The notes beneath the pieces were generated by a model. That model did not search any database, had not been told where the DNA came from, and was given only the letters and a program-made list of their open reading frames with translations. From NCBI GenBank assembly GCA_938002655.1, contig CALLAC010000018.1, positions 1 through 64,000 of the forward strand: a stretch of DNA of 64,000 nucleotides. The letters are read 5' to 3'. The stretch is from an uncultured Cytophagales bacterium. GTDB taxonomy: Bacteria; Bacteroidota; Bacteroidia; Cytophagales; Thermonemataceae. The stretch's first letter is position 1. Every line of letters begins with the position of its first letter. Positions 11,189 to 32,893 of this stretch are shown one piece after another. Both the position numbers and the translations under genes were made by a program.

Positions 11189-11944
11189 ATGCTACAAATA
11201 GCTCTTCTAAACGGAAAACCTGAAATTTTTTACAGCTTGCAAGGTGAAGGCAAAAATATAGGCAAACCCAGCATTTTTATTCGCCTTTCTTTGTGTAATT
11301 TGTACTGCTTTTGGTGCGATACCGATTACACCTGGAATTGGGAGCATACTAGTTATTCTCACCAAAATGATAAAGAGCCTAGCTATCAAAAGTTCAAAAA
11401 ATCGGAAAGTATTATCCAACTTAATAACGAGCAAATAATTGCAGAAGTTCAAAAATATAATTGCAATCGTCTCATTTTTACGGGTGGGGAGCCACTAATT
11501 CAACAAAAAAAACTCTTGCCTCTGCTGAATCAGCTCAAAAAGCAAAATCCGCAATATTATATTGAATTTGAAACCAATGGCACGATTATTCCTGAACCTG
11601 AATTAGAAGCTCTCGCCGACCAATTCAATGTTTCCTTGAAATTAGCCCACTCAAAAGTTTTACTTCAAGAAAGATTAAAAACACAAGCTATTGATTTCTT
11701 CGCTCAAAATGCTAAAAGCAACTTCAAATTTGTTGTAGATAGCCCCAAAGATTTAGATGAAATTCTAGAAATTATCCAAAAATATGCTATCTTTCACGAC
11801 AAGGTGTATTTGATGCCCCAAGGAACCAAGTCCCATATCTTACAGGAAAAACAGCAGTGGCTTATAGAAATTTGCAAACAGTATCAATTTAATTATACCG
11901 ACAGACTGCACATTCTCATTTATGGAAACAAAAGGGGAGTGTAA
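11189..11944 (+). CDS. queE: 7-carboxy-7-deazaguanine synthase (radical SAM)
   Basis: A 251-residue radical SAM protein with the 4Fe-4S motif C36-x3-C40-x2-C43 (LCNLYCFWCDTDYTW). It opens with the QueE-typical GEGKNIGKPSIFIRL and has FTGGEPL for SAM binding. QueE converts 6-carboxy-tetrahydropterin to CDG on the way to queuosine. It is alone here. The PTPS-like genes at 29537 and 30745 have the PTPS-II motif, not the QueD motif, so the QueD partner is either elsewhere or replaced by one of them. The start is the first ATG and gives the normal N-terminus. Confidence 0.88.
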   Translation: MLQIALLNGKPEIFYSLQGEGKNIGKPSIFIRLSLCNLYCFWCDTDYTWNWEHTSYSHQNDKEPSYQKFKKSESIIQLNNEQIIAEVQKYNCNRLIFTGGEPLIQQKKLLPLLNQLKKQNPQYYIEFETNGTIIPEPELEALADQFNVSLKLAHSKVLLQERLKTQAIDFFAQNAKSNFKFVVDSPKDLDEILEIIQKYAIFHDKVYLMPQGTKSHILQEKQQWLIEICKQYQFNYTDRLHILIYGNKRGV

Positions 11945-29536: not shown

Positions 29537-29944
29537 ATGAAAATCAAAGTTTGTCGGAAAGAGCATTTCAACGCCGCACACCGCTTGCACAATCCTACTT
29601 GGGACGAAGCTACCAACCAGAAAATTTTTGGAAAATGCAATAATCAGTATTTTCACGGGCACAACTACGAACTCATTGTGGAGGTGATTGGCGAAATCAA
29701 TCCTGAAACAGGCTACGTAATGGATATGAAAGAACTTTCCGATATTATCCGCAATCACGTAACCGAACGCTTTGACCATAAAAACCTAAACCTTGAAATA
29801 GATGAATTTCGTAACCTTAACCCAACTGCAGAAAATATTGCTGTGGTTATTTGGAATATTTTAAGAAAACAAATCAATCCCCAACACGAACTCAAAATTA
29901 AATTGTATGAAACCGAACGAAACTTCGTTGAATACCCTGCCTGA
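29537..29944 (+). CDS. 6-pyruvoyl-tetrahydropterin synthase family protein, copy 1
   Basis: A 135-residue COG0720 protein. The zinc ligands are a His in EHFNAAHRL and the two in FHGHNYEL. The catalytic Cys is in GKCNNQYFHGHNY, i.e. C-x5-HGH. By published motif classes this spacing marks PTPS-II (tetrahydrobiopterin pathway), while QueD has C-x3-HGH. It also has ERFDHKNLN with the catalytic His and the acidic NPTAENIAVVIW. It precedes folE with almost no gap, so the enzyme and its substrate supplier are co-expressed. A role in queuosine synthesis cannot be excluded. Confidence 0.85.
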   Translation: MKIKVCRKEHFNAAHRLHNPTWDEATNQKIFGKCNNQYFHGHNYELIVEVIGEINPETGYVMDMKELSDIIRNHVTERFDHKNLNLEIDEFRNLNPTAENIAVVIWNILRKQINPQHELKIKLYETERNFVEYPA

Positions 29945-29954
29945 TACTTGGCAA

Positions 29955-30614
29955 ATGATGGAAGAAATAGGTGAAAACCATTTTTCAAGTAATCCAGACA
30001 CACCCCTGCGTGATGATGCTTTTGAAATAGACGACGAACTAAAAATTGAACTCATCGAAAAGCATTTCCGAGAAATTATGCATATCTTGGGTTTAGACCT
30101 CACAGACGATAGCCTTAAAGGTACGCCCCATAGAGTTGCCAAAATGTATGTAAAAGAAATTTTCAGCGGTCTTAATCCTAACAATAAGCCCAGAATTTCC
30201 CTTTTTGAAAATAAGTACGAATATAACCAAATGCTCGTTGAGAAAGATATTATTGTGTATTCGTATTGTGAGCATCATTTTGTACCTATCGTAGGAAAGG
30301 CTCATGTAGCGTACATTTCCAAAGGACAGGTGATAGGTCTTTCGAAGCTCAATCGGATTGTGCAGTATTATGCTCGCCGTCCCCAAGTACAAGAGCGTAT
30401 GACTATGCAGATTGGCAAAGAGTTGCAAGAGACTCTACAAACAGAAGACGTAGCAGTAGTGATTGATGCCAAGCACCTGTGTGTATCTTCGCGTGGAGTG
30501 CAAGATGTTTGCAGTGCCACCATTACAGCATTCTACGAAGGAAAGTTCAAAGAAGAAGCTACTAAAAACGAATTTCTGAAATATCTTTCACTTTCTACCG
30601 AATATGGTATCTAA
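29955..30614 (+). CDS. folE: GTP cyclohydrolase I
   Basis: A GTP cyclohydrolase I of about 219 residues. Zn2+ ligand Cys and His residues lie in YSYCEHHFVP, followed by GKAHVAYI, RRPQVQERMT and KHLCVSSRGVQD (the second Cys ligand). It converts GTP to 7,8-dihydroneopterin triphosphate, the precursor of folate, biopterin and deazaguanine compounds. An earlier in-frame ATG at 29907 would overlap the upstream PTPS gene by 38 bases; I prefer 29955 (MMEEIGENHF), 10 bases after that stop. It ends at a strong terminator. Confidence 0.94.
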   Translation: MMEEIGENHFSSNPDTPLRDDAFEIDDELKIELIEKHFREIMHILGLDLTDDSLKGTPHRVAKMYVKEIFSGLNPNNKPRISLFENKYEYNQMLVEKDIIVYSYCEHHFVPIVGKAHVAYISKGQVIGLSKLNRIVQYYARRPQVQERMTMQIGKELQETLQTEDVAVVIDAKHLCVSSRGVQDVCSATITAFYEGKFKEEATKNEFLKYLSLSTEYGI

Positions 30615-30618
30615 TCTG

Positions 30619-30648
30619 AACCCCTGAAAAATCAGGGGTTTTTCTTTT
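30619..30648 (+). terminator. Rho-independent terminator after folE
   Basis: Stem aacccctga (30619-30627) and tcaggggtt (30632-30640), 4-base loop, then tttctttt. It ends the PTPS-folE message before the second PTPS gene. Confidence 0.85.
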
Positions 30649-30744
30649 GGTAAATTTTTTGTAGCTTTGCACGGCTATTGCGTTTCAGTTTGCAAGCACT
30701 AACCTGTACGCAGTAGTTTTGTTTGGCCCAAAAACTTGCAAAAA

Positions 30745-31173
30745 ATGGTATTTGTTTGCAGAAAAGAGCATTTCAACGCCGCTCATAGGCTTTTTAATCC
30801 CGCTTGGAGCGAAGAGAAAAATGAAGAAGTCTTTGGCATTTGTGCCAATAAATATTTTCATGGACACAACTTCGAGCTAATCGTAATTGTAAAAGGTATT
30901 CCCGACCAAGATACAGGTTGCGTGATTGACCTAAAAAAACTTTCTAAACTTATCCGTAGCGAGGTTATTGAAAAATTAGACCACAAAAATATCAACTTGG
31001 AAGTAGATTTTATGCAAGGCAAAATTCCCAGTTGCGAAAACTTAGTGATTGCTATTTGGGAAATTCTTGCACCCAAAATTTCAGATATTGCCTACGACAA
31101 AAATGCCCGCTTGCATTGTGTTCGTTTGTTTGAAACACAAAACAACTTTGTAGAGTATTATGGCGAAGGATAA
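30745..31173 (+). CDS. 6-pyruvoyl-tetrahydropterin synthase family protein, copy 2
   Basis: A 142-residue paralogue of the 29537 gene with the same zinc site (EHFNAAHRLFNP, YFHGHNFEL) and again C-x5-HGH (GICANKYFHGHNF). The two share CRKEHFNAAHRL and the overall plan but differ through the C-terminal half, so this is an old duplication. It has its own start after the folE terminator, with a -7 element TAGCTTTG at 30662-30669 some 75 bases upstream. The ATG at 30745 is used; an in-frame TTG lies 9 bases before. Its 3' end overlaps the convergent kinase gene by 16 bases. Confidence 0.82.
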   Translation: MVFVCRKEHFNAAHRLFNPAWSEEKNEEVFGICANKYFHGHNFELIVIVKGIPDQDTGCVIDLKKLSKLIRSEVIEKLDHKNINLEVDFMQGKIPSCENLVIAIWEILAPKISDIAYDKNARLHCVRLFETQNNFVEYYGEG

Positions 31174-32024
31174 GTATTCTTGCTAATGTGGTAGTTTATT
31201 AAGCCTTCCATAGGGCTTTTGATAATTTTACCGAGTTTCCAACCTCGCTTTTGCAGACATTTTTGCAATAAATGCTCAAATACAACTGCGATAGAACCAA
31301 CAAAATGAATAGGCAAATGCTCTACCAAAGGTAATTTGCCAACATATTTGCCAAGAAAATCTTCAAAACCTTTGTAGAGCAAGTTTTCTATGAAAGGATG
31401 TTTGGCATTTTGCAGAGCAAATGGAGCAAAAGAGGCAAAATAGCGATTAGGAAAGGGATTTTGGTAAGCATTTTCCAAAACTTCTGCAACATCAATCAGA
31501 TAAGTTTCTTTCAGGGCTTTATACAAATCTGCGGGCATTTCTTGATGCAAAAAGGCTTTGAGTAATTTTTTGCCAATATAGCCGCCACTGCCTTCGTCAC
31601 CGAGCCAAAAACCTAAATTGATAGGCTGAGCCGTTATCTCTGAGCCGTTAAATACGCAAGCATTAGAACCTGTGCCCAGAATACAAGCTATGCCTTGGGT
31701 ATTTCCACATAAAGCTCTTGCCGCCGCCAGTAAGTCGTGCCCTACTGAGATTTGAGCATTCGGAAAAACTTTGTGTAAGGCCGAAGCCACTACTTGCTTT
31801 TTTTCATCAGTAGAGCAACCTGCTCCATAAAAAAATATTTGTGCAACTTTCCGTTCGCTTACGCGTGGGGCAACATTTGCCCAAATTTCTTCTATGATTT
31901 GTTCGCTTGTCCAGAAATAAGGATTGATGCCTATGCTTTGAAATTGCTCTTGCAGCTGCTTGTTGCTATTTAGCACTGCCCAATCTGTTTTTGAAGAGCC
32001 GCTATCGGCAATAAGATAAATCAT
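31158..32024 (-). CDS. BadF/BadG-type ATPase, probable N-acetylglucosamine kinase
   Basis: A 288-residue actin-fold sugar kinase. It has the phosphate-1 loop ADSGSSKTDWAVL at residues 6-18, VGHDLLAAARALCGN, the phosphate-2 region IACILGTGSNACVFNG, and GFWLGDEGSGGYIGKKLL. This set is typical of the BadF/BadG family members annotated as GlcNAc kinases in Bacteroidota, which phosphorylate amino sugars recovered from cell wall. The substrate is inferred. It lies on the opposite strand within the pterin island and is probably unrelated to it. Confidence 0.78.
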   Translation of the reverse strand: MIYLIADSGSSKTDWAVLNSNKQLQEQFQSIGINPYFWTSEQIIEEIWANVAPRVSERKVAQIFFYGAGCSTDEKKQVVASALHKVFPNAQISVGHDLLAAARALCGNTQGIACILGTGSNACVFNGSEITAQPINLGFWLGDEGSGGYIGKKLLKAFLHQEMPADLYKALKETYLIDVAEVLENAYQNPFPNRYFASFAPFALQNAKHPFIENLLYKGFEDFLGKYVGKLPLVEHLPIHFVGSIAVVFEHLLQKCLQKRGWKLGKIIKSPMEGLINYHISKNTYPSP

Positions 32025-32065
32025 TGTACGTTATGATAAAAATCAGTAGGTTTTTTGCGTGAAAA

Positions 32066-32096
32066 TTTGCATTTTTCCGTGAAAATAGTATATTTG
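32066..32096 (+). promoter_or_regulatory. Bacteroidota promoter, TTTG-N19-TATATTTG
   Basis: TTTG at 32066-32069 and TATATTTG at 32089-32096, 19 bases apart, match the consensus exactly and lie 36 bases before the phenylalanine hydroxylase ATG. Confidence 0.72.
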
Positions 32097-32131
32097 TAGT
32101 TCCGAAACAACGTTCATTATTAAAATTTTGT

Positions 32132-32893
32132 ATGATTATGCTTTCTCAAATGCGTCAAGAATACGAAAAGTACACCGAAGAAGATTTTGAGGTGTGGAAA
32201 ATTCTTTTTGAAAGGCAAATGAAAAACTTGCCGGGCAAAGCTACCCAAGAATATTTAGACGGCATAGAGCGTGTAGGTTTTGTTGCTGACCGAATCCCCA
32301 ATTTTGATGAAGTGAATGAAAGGCTCAAAAAGTACACAGGTTGGCGAATTTATGTAGTACCTGGGCTTCTGCCCAACAAAGAATTTTTTGAACTGATGAA
32401 AGACGGCAATTTTTGTGCTACCACTTGGCTTCGTAAAAAAAGCCAATTAGATTACCTGCAAGAGCCTGATATGTTTCACGACGTATTTGGGCACGTGCCA
32501 CTACTTACCAACCAAGATTTATGCAACTTTTTGGTAGATTTGAGCAAAATCGCTTTGCAATACATTGAAAGTGAAATTGCTATTGAACTCATTGCTCGCT
32601 TGTATTGGTACACCGTAGAGTTTGGTCTTATCAACGAACCGCAAGGTTTGCGAATTTACGGAGCAGGTATTCTTTCATCAAGGGGCGAATCTGATTATTC
32701 TTTGTTCAGCGATATACCGCAACGCGTTCCGTTTAATGTAGCTGAAATTTTAGACACTCCCTACATCAAAGACCGCTATCAATCTAAATACTTTGTGATA
32801 GATTCTTTTGAGCAGTTGTATTCATCGGTGCCTGAAATAGCTCGTTTAGTAGGCAAAGCTGTTACTGAAAATTGGGAAGTTGTAATTTCTTAA
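32132..32893 (+). CDS. phhA: Phenylalanine-4-hydroxylase
   Basis: A 253-residue pterin-dependent aromatic amino acid hydroxylase. The Fe(II) ligands are His116 and His121 in DMFHDVFGHVPLL and Glu163 in YTVEFGL. GLINEPQGLRIYGAGILSS forms the substrate and pterin side of the pocket. It hydroxylates phenylalanine to tyrosine with O2 and a tetrahydropterin. There is no N-terminal ACT regulatory domain, as usual in bacteria. It has its own consensus promoter. Lying 1 kb from folE and two PTPS-II genes, it is the likely consumer of the pterin they make. Confidence 0.95.
   Translation: MIMLSQMRQEYEKYTEEDFEVWKILFERQMKNLPGKATQEYLDGIERVGFVADRIPNFDEVNERLKKYTGWRIYVVPGLLPNKEFFELMKDGNFCATTWLRKKSQLDYLQEPDMFHDVFGHVPLLTNQDLCNFLVDLSKIALQYIESEIAIELIARLYWYTVEFGLINEPQGLRIYGAGILSSRGESDYSLFSDIPQRVPFNVAEILDTPYIKDRYQSKYFVIDSFEQLYSSVPEIARLVGKAVTENWEVVIS

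Follow-up and report, generated by a model that had tools for sequence, protein, structure and literature searches.

Two ancient PTPS-family paralogues flank folE in a Cytophagales bacterium and may serve pterin cofactor and queuosine synthesis

Proteins of the COG0720 family are sorted by the spacing of a short active-site motif. As given in excerpts of PMC5041015, CxxxxxHGH denotes the 6-pyruvoyl-tetrahydropterin synthases (PTPS) of type PTPS-II, CxxxHGH denotes QueD and ExxHGH denotes PTPS-III; about 50 bacterial members are predicted there to take part in tetrahydrobiopterin (BH4) synthesis. The C-x5 versus C-x3 spacing is the published rule that separates biopterin from queuosine enzymes in this family. 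Excerpts of PMC5445326 describe a cluster of 1183 CxxxxxHGH sequences, called PTPS-II, with folE in some of the neighbourhoods (coverage at most 0.13). Here, we analysed a window of 64,000 nucleotides (nt) from an uncultured Cytophagales bacterium (contig CALLAC010000018.1 of assembly GCA_938002655.1), in which two PTPS genes with the C-x5-HGH motif, designated c1 and c2, lie on either side of folE and close to phhA. An original prediction had read them as a possible dedicated tetrahydrobiopterin island. We favour, with modest confidence, another reading, in which two ancient paralogues of one fold use a common FolE product for different jobs, c1 for a pterin cofactor and c2 as QueD.

c1 (29537-29944, + strand; motif FGKCNNQYFHGH) encodes a probable 6-pyruvoyl-tetrahydropterin synthase whose closest PDB relatives are animal PTPS. 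Its end shares 38 nt with the start of folE (29907-30614, +), which encodes GTP cyclohydrolase I (NF006824, 281 bits against a cut-off of 202; TIGR00063 also above cut-off). c2 (30745-31173, +; motif FGICANKYFHGH; a TTG at 30736 is a possible alternative start) follows and encodes a probable QueD-type 6-carboxytetrahydropterin synthase. The gene for phenylalanine 4-monooxygenase, phhA (32132-32893, +; TIGR01267, 295 bits, cut-off 265), begins 959 nt past c2. Its product contains FHDVFGH and YWYTVEFGL, which we take to hold the usual His/His/Glu iron ligands, and the folE and phhA products exceed both Pfam and NCBIfam cut-offs. Coordinates and motifs thus confirmed two C-x5-HGH genes around folE and a phhA with full iron ligands less than 1 kb away. 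The gene set stood as originally described, with one detail to correct: an opposite-strand gene for an N-acetylglucosamine-kinase (NagK)/BadF-like ATPase (31158-32024, -; under curated cut-offs) splits c2 from phhA.

Both PTPS proteins pass the Pfam cut-off for PF01242 (120 bits for c1 and 105 bits for c2; cut-off 22.4). They score under the NCBIfam cut-offs for the PTPS subfamily (93 and 62 bits, respectively; cut-off 125.5) and for the QueD equivalog (71 and 52.9 bits; cut-off 89.25). The zinc ligands, Cys, Asp-His pair and Glu of the PTPS family are all present in both. A role as PTPS-III in folate synthesis is unsupported, as neither window copy has E-x2-HGH, though no search for FolB was made. 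The original prediction had proposed looking for a C-x3-HGH QueD elsewhere in the genome; a search of the source genome returned c1 and c2 as its sole PF01242 proteins, with no third member.

The distribution of the copies was surveyed in 192 genomes of the order (completeness of at least 90% requested), including the source genome, G000 (2.64 Mb in 44 contigs, 97.5% complete, placed in family f1). The c2 row of G066, another f1 member, matches that of Thermonema rossianum exactly, and f1 probably corresponds to Thermonemataceae, order Cytophagales. A PF01242 protein is present in 171 of the 192. Copy type was assigned by sequence for fetched loci and elsewhere from E-values and match counts; gene absences in fragmented genomes may be misses. 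Both copies occur in about 158 of the 171 genomes, a figure that counts with c1 six genomes (G010, G142, G148, G019, G034, and G074) having no match at the usual c1 strength and a second protein that was unread. By hand count, nine genomes hold c2 only (G007, G025, G057, G070, G082, G109, G124, G137, and G179), and four lack an intact ordinary c2 (G026, G046, G048, and G156).

We built a tree of 130 rows and 139 columns (37 c1, 83 c2, and 10 others), in which one branch with support 97/92 splits c1 from c2. Many of its forks are unresolved, a few rows duplicate a gene already included, and it uses 40 of 80 named c2 loci, these being the best 80 of 559 confirmed relatives, with titles giving Cytophagales groups or just Bacteroidetes. 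c1 joins two mammalian PTPS rows (89/90) in what the tree tool flagged as a long-branch join. Six rows with C-x3 cluster on their own (99/98) and comprise four from f18 genomes of the order and the PDB QueD entries 4ntm and 2oba. The C-x5-HGH motif is kept in 37/37 c1 rows and 83/83 c2 rows and is therefore not a chance feature; the zinc ligands, Cys, Asp-His pair and Glu are kept in 37/37 and 82/83 rows, respectively. A Glu at the PTPS-III position stands alongside the Cys in 24 of the 83 c2 rows and one of the 37 c1 rows. In PDB searches, c1 best matches animal PTPS (1b66; 118 bits, E 4e-33), and c2 also best matches PTPS (90 bits to 1b66). The window copies are 52% identical and fall in separate clades, which rejects a recent tandem duplication; they are old Cytophagales paralogues. 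Their joint retention as separate clades in most PTPS-bearing genomes argues for different jobs.

Some members of both clades have decayed. Two genomes of 9-10 Mb (G044 and G094; loci L222, L224, L188, and L189) have degenerate active sites in both PTPS copies: c1, outside the tree rows, has lost the Cys and the zinc ligands with folE still downstream (by eye), and c2 has lost the Asp-His pair. The c2 at the lpxB locus of G026 (L220, 1247-1657) is diverged and without Asp-His, judged by eye, and that at the lpxB locus of G156 (L221) is frameshifted.

The two clades keep different neighbours. folE lies downstream of c1 on the same strand in 37/37 loci (28 best-scoring and nine from genomes picked as exceptions), with a gap of -34 to 281 nt, and also in G053, a genome of the same genus as the source. 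The folE neighbourhoods described in the excerpts of PMC5445326 make this pairing one of a known kind. For c2, lpxB begins no more than 400 nt downstream in 68 of the 80 best-matching named loci and stands anywhere in the flank in 73; clpX, clpP and tig, named by eye, are often convergent beyond lpxB in these loci (L091-L170). Within flanks of up to 10 kb per side, the same 80 loci include a queE-like gene in seven cases, phhA in one, and folE or c1 in none. There is no lpxB near c2 in G000, G024 or G053.

The cluster of c1, folE, c2 and phhA was found only in G000 and the same-genus G024, and among the matches listed, by eye, these are also the only genomes with phhA less than 20 kb from c1. 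In the other PTPS-bearing f1 members sampled (G053, of the same genus, and G039, G066, and G078), c1 and c2 are distant from each other or lie on separate contigs. The "island" resembles a local rearrangement; a recent event in this genus would have brought c1 and c2 together at folE beside phhA.

Sites in the intergenic regions also argue against a single four-gene unit. An intrinsic-terminator-like hairpin with a T run follows folE (30618-30641, +; -17.2 kcal/mol, z -3.7, 1/200 shuffles equally stable); eight terminator-like sites were found in the regional scan versus 4.2 expected. Sites of the form TTTG-N-TANNTTTG, which we take to be the Bacteroidota promoter type, stand upstream of c2 (30689-30721, +) and upstream of phhA (32066-32096, +). 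The window contains 22 of them versus 6.7 expected from shuffles, and sigma-70-like sites in the regional scan are below the chance number. The opposite-strand NagK-like gene leaves a single operon possible for c1-folE only. Together with the hairpin and the promoter-like sites, which probably act as terminator and promoters, this points to c1-folE as one unit and to c2 and phhA as probably separate units. A dedicated four-gene BH4 operon is rejected on these grounds, and the separate control of c2 proposed in the original prediction is supported by its own promoter-like site downstream of the folE hairpin.

The assignment of c2 to queuosine synthesis comes mainly from a few informative genomes. 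In G007 (93% complete), the one COG0720 protein is an lpxB-linked C-x5-HGH c2. In this genome, queC (214 bits; cut-off 150) adjoins queF (104 bits; cut-off 86.9), a QueE-like protein and QueA are also encoded, and there is no PhhA match. Its sister G025 has c2 only and a QueE-like protein, with no true QueC or QueF, and G052 and G077 combine QueC and QueF with both PTPS copies. In G174, a protein with C-x3-HGH, 50% identical to the window c2, is encoded 13 nt before lpxB. On the NCBIfam QueD model (cut-off 89.25), the G007 c2 scores 62.0 bits and the G174 protein 75.9 bits. G046 has no c2 match and instead a separate, distant C-x3-HGH protein. Moreover, a QueE-like match occurs in 167 of the 171 PTPS-bearing genomes versus 2 of the 21 without PTPS; most such matches are weak and short, covering about 40 residues at E 1e-6 to 1e-8, and the contrast depends on a single family of small genomes, f21. 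Of the 45 loci read, 44 contain a QueE-like frame. The suggestion in the original prediction that the second copy might supply queuosine thus appears the better reading, given the G007 gene set and the C-x3 protein at the lpxB place of G174, and the rule that C-x5-HGH marks biopterin enzymes is unsafe for c2.

We propose that the FolE product would feed both enzymes. c1 would lead to a reduced-pterin cofactor, usable by PhhA and recycled by pterin-4a-carbinolamine dehydratase (PCD). c2, separately transcribed, would be the QueD of the order and supply 6-carboxy-tetrahydropterin to QueE despite its PTPS-II-type C-x5-HGH motif.

Several observations weigh against this proposal. The window c2, like all other c2 rows, has C-x5-HGH in place of C-x3-HGH, and it scores under the QueD cut-off; QueD (PTPS-I) and PTPS-II have common catalytic residues, so these do not separate the two functions. 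G007 is only 93% complete, and the C-x3 protein of G174 is not firmly nested within c2 in the tree. Four f18 genomes (G032, G139, G145, and G162) hold c1, c2 and a C-x3 QueD. A QueE-like match is found with c1 only in G048 and without PTPS in G012 and G090, and is kept in G026, G044, G094 and G156, where c2 is degenerate or frameshifted; the link between QueE and c2 is therefore not absolute. The QueE-like proteins tested score under the QueE cut-offs. lpxB is near c2 in just 9 of the 29 whole-genome loci closest to the window c2 (flanks of 1.5 kb), and an additional set of 15 loci, picked as exceptions, has it in 7. All seven queE-linked c2 loci bear Cyclobacteriaceae names and are thus not independent, perhaps reflecting one or two events. 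On the side of c1, PhhA is present in seven of the nine c2-only genomes and unmatched in about 41 of the 162 counted with c1, and no sepiapterin-reductase match at E 1e-20 was found in G000 with TIGR01500 for the last step of BH4 synthesis. Finally, no QueC was found in G000, where the best PF06508 hit is a fragment scoring 26 bits within a frame of 645 aa, and there is no PF14489 (QueF) match. A QueD in this genome would consequently feed an unfinished canonical pathway.

Nearly all of the 192 genomes share this gap. PF06508 reaches QueC strength (>200 bits) in three of the 192 genomes, G007, G052 and G077, the last with 7% contamination; weaker family members score 73 bits in G171 and 70 bits in G108, and another lies in a probable mobile element of G139. 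PF14489 is above cut-off in five genomes (G007, G052, G002, G025, and G077). Four of the five were read, and the cysteine of CPFSGLPD is present in G007 and G052 and absent in G002 and G025. The QueF-like proteins of G002 (L065, 1423-1860) and G025 (L064, 1435-1845) have FLGVxxQPDF in place of the catalytic-Cys motif and are probably not nitrile reductases. The weak QueC match of G025 is MnmA-like (by eye) and was discarded as a QueC. Tgt is present in G000 (480 bits, cut-off 307), and QueA (PF02547) matches were obtained in 191/192 genomes, with two PF02547 matches in G000 and many others. QueA also occurs in f21 genomes devoid of PTPS and is by itself no proof of de novo synthesis. G000 may salvage preQ1.

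The QueE-like protein of the window is a radical SAM protein of 251 aa (11189-11944, +) and falls under every QueE cut-off. Its form is strongly matched (E <1e-90) in 7/192 genomes (G000, G024, G090, G013, G062, G094, and G044). In the other genomes with a match, the QueE-like protein differs greatly in form and often measures about 200-230 aa, and QueE has been replaced or has strongly diverged. We considered whether neighbours of QueE-like genes could substitute for QueC or QueF, and nothing QueC-like was seen among the clusters listed for 45 loci; with names assigned by eye, a folD-like gene lies upstream in 11 of these, and 21 encode a TPR-type protein (about 640 aa). A separate locus, L223 (G139:C16:51000-57500), is a probable mobile element with C-x3-HGH QueD-like, QueC-like and DNA methyltransferase-like proteins, and by eye is perhaps a cassette for DNA modification with deazaguanines. 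The pathway has a concrete hole in that QueE-like, Tgt and QueA proteins are present with neither QueC nor QueF found. We tentatively consider it possible, though doubtful, that the Cytophagales have a queuosine route with a C-x5-HGH QueD and QueE and without QueC and QueF, undescribed enzymes turning 7-carboxy-7-deazaguanine (CDG) into preQ1, or CDG meeting another fate. If so, the c2 clade would represent a second kind of QueD with another motif spacing, which annotation by motif labels as biopterin synthase.

PhhA is present in 129 of the 192 genomes. It occurs in 7/9 c2-only genomes (weakly in G179, 1.5e-7) versus 121 of the 162 counted with c1, or 118 of 156 when the six with unread second proteins are left aside. 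Among the 21 genomes without a PTPS match, only G012 has PhhA, and it also has PCD and a QueE-like protein. The distribution of PhhA does not track c1. PCD was detected in 156/192 genomes; that of G000 is an intact 81-aa frame, and the PCD gene adjoins phhA in the relatives G191 and G070. The same-genus G090 (92% complete) has a QueE-like protein and no PTPS, PhhA or PCD match. The sepiapterin-reductase-like enzyme that was to be looked for after the original prediction was not matched in G000 at E 1e-20 by TIGR01500. This model is above cut-off in 0/192 genomes and 0/14 controls and reaches E 1e-20 in 61/192, which makes it a weak detector of bacterial short-chain dehydrogenases/reductases. 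In E. coli and other bacteria, the cofactor named for hydroxylases of this kind is tetrahydromonapterin (excerpts of PMC13259868). G000 contains a PhhA cofactor system, of which BH4 may be the pterin. The original idea that FolE and PTPS-II make the PhhA pterin is partly supported: c1 is tied to folE and near animal PTPS in a genome with PhhA and PCD, and the sepiapterin-reductase model gave no match at E 1e-20.

It could be argued that FolE and both PTPS-II copies make BH4 dedicated to PhhA, with c2 as an additional, separately controlled biopterin synthase. Both copies carry the motif published for PTPS-II in the excerpts of PMC5041015, PTPS entries are the best PDB hits for each, phhA is nearby and PCD is present. 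We regard this as unlikely, because among the matches listed phhA is close to c1 just in G000 and G024, PhhA does not follow c1, no sepiapterin reductase was matched at E 1e-20, and the c2 of G007 sits with queuosine genes in a genome without a PhhA match. The dedicated tetrahydrobiopterin island of the original prediction is not upheld on the first three of these points.

The opposite assignment, with the folE-linked c1 as QueD and c2 as the pterin-cofactor enzyme, seems less probable still. FolE is named among PTPS-I neighbours in the excerpts of PMC5041015, five c2-only f14 genomes (G057, G070, G082, G124, and G137) keep PhhA, and G048 pairs c1 only with a QueE-like match; set against these are G007, with c2 only, QueC, QueF and a QueE-like protein and no PhhA match, the C-x3 protein that occupies the c2 position of G174, and the closer affinity of c1 to animal PTPS. 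Both copies might also be promiscuous, each serving both pathways so that loss of either is tolerated. This would fit the retention of PhhA in most c2-only genomes and of a QueE-like protein in the c1-only G048, and promiscuity in COG0720 is said to have been described by Phillips and colleagues in 2012. We consider it improbable, since most PTPS-bearing genomes keep both copies as separate clades. The division into a c1 for the pterin cofactor and a c2 acting as QueD is the reading that we retain. If c2 is indeed a C-x5 QueD, misannotation threatens an entire order.

A literature search conducted largely without subscription papers, and partly on excerpts, returned no C-x5-HGH QueD in Cytophagales, no route free of QueC and QueF, and no queuosine role for the C-x5-HGH lpxB-linked clade. 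The main texts of PMC13329287 and PMC11130926 contain no word starting with "cytophag". Compared with PTPS-II (COG0720; PDB 1b66 and 3i2b), c1 and c2 have the same C-x5-HGH, zinc ligands, Cys/Asp/His and Glu, and c1 has the folE neighbour published in the excerpted PMC5445326. They differ in that G000 has no sepiapterin-reductase match at E 1e-20 and that c2 forms its own clade, before lpxB in many relatives and with queuosine genes in G007. QueD/PTPS-I (PDB 4ntm and 3qn0) belongs to the same family as c2, whose role would be the same, and a C-x3-HGH version occupies the lpxB place in G174; c2 differs by its C-x5-HGH and its 53 bits against the cut-off of 89, and the C-x3 rows branch separately. 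As in bacterial phhA-phhB hydroxylase systems, G000 has PhhA and PCD, which are side by side in G191 and G070, whereas the PCD of G000 is on a contig other than that of the window. The cluster consists of ordinary genes in a local arrangement.

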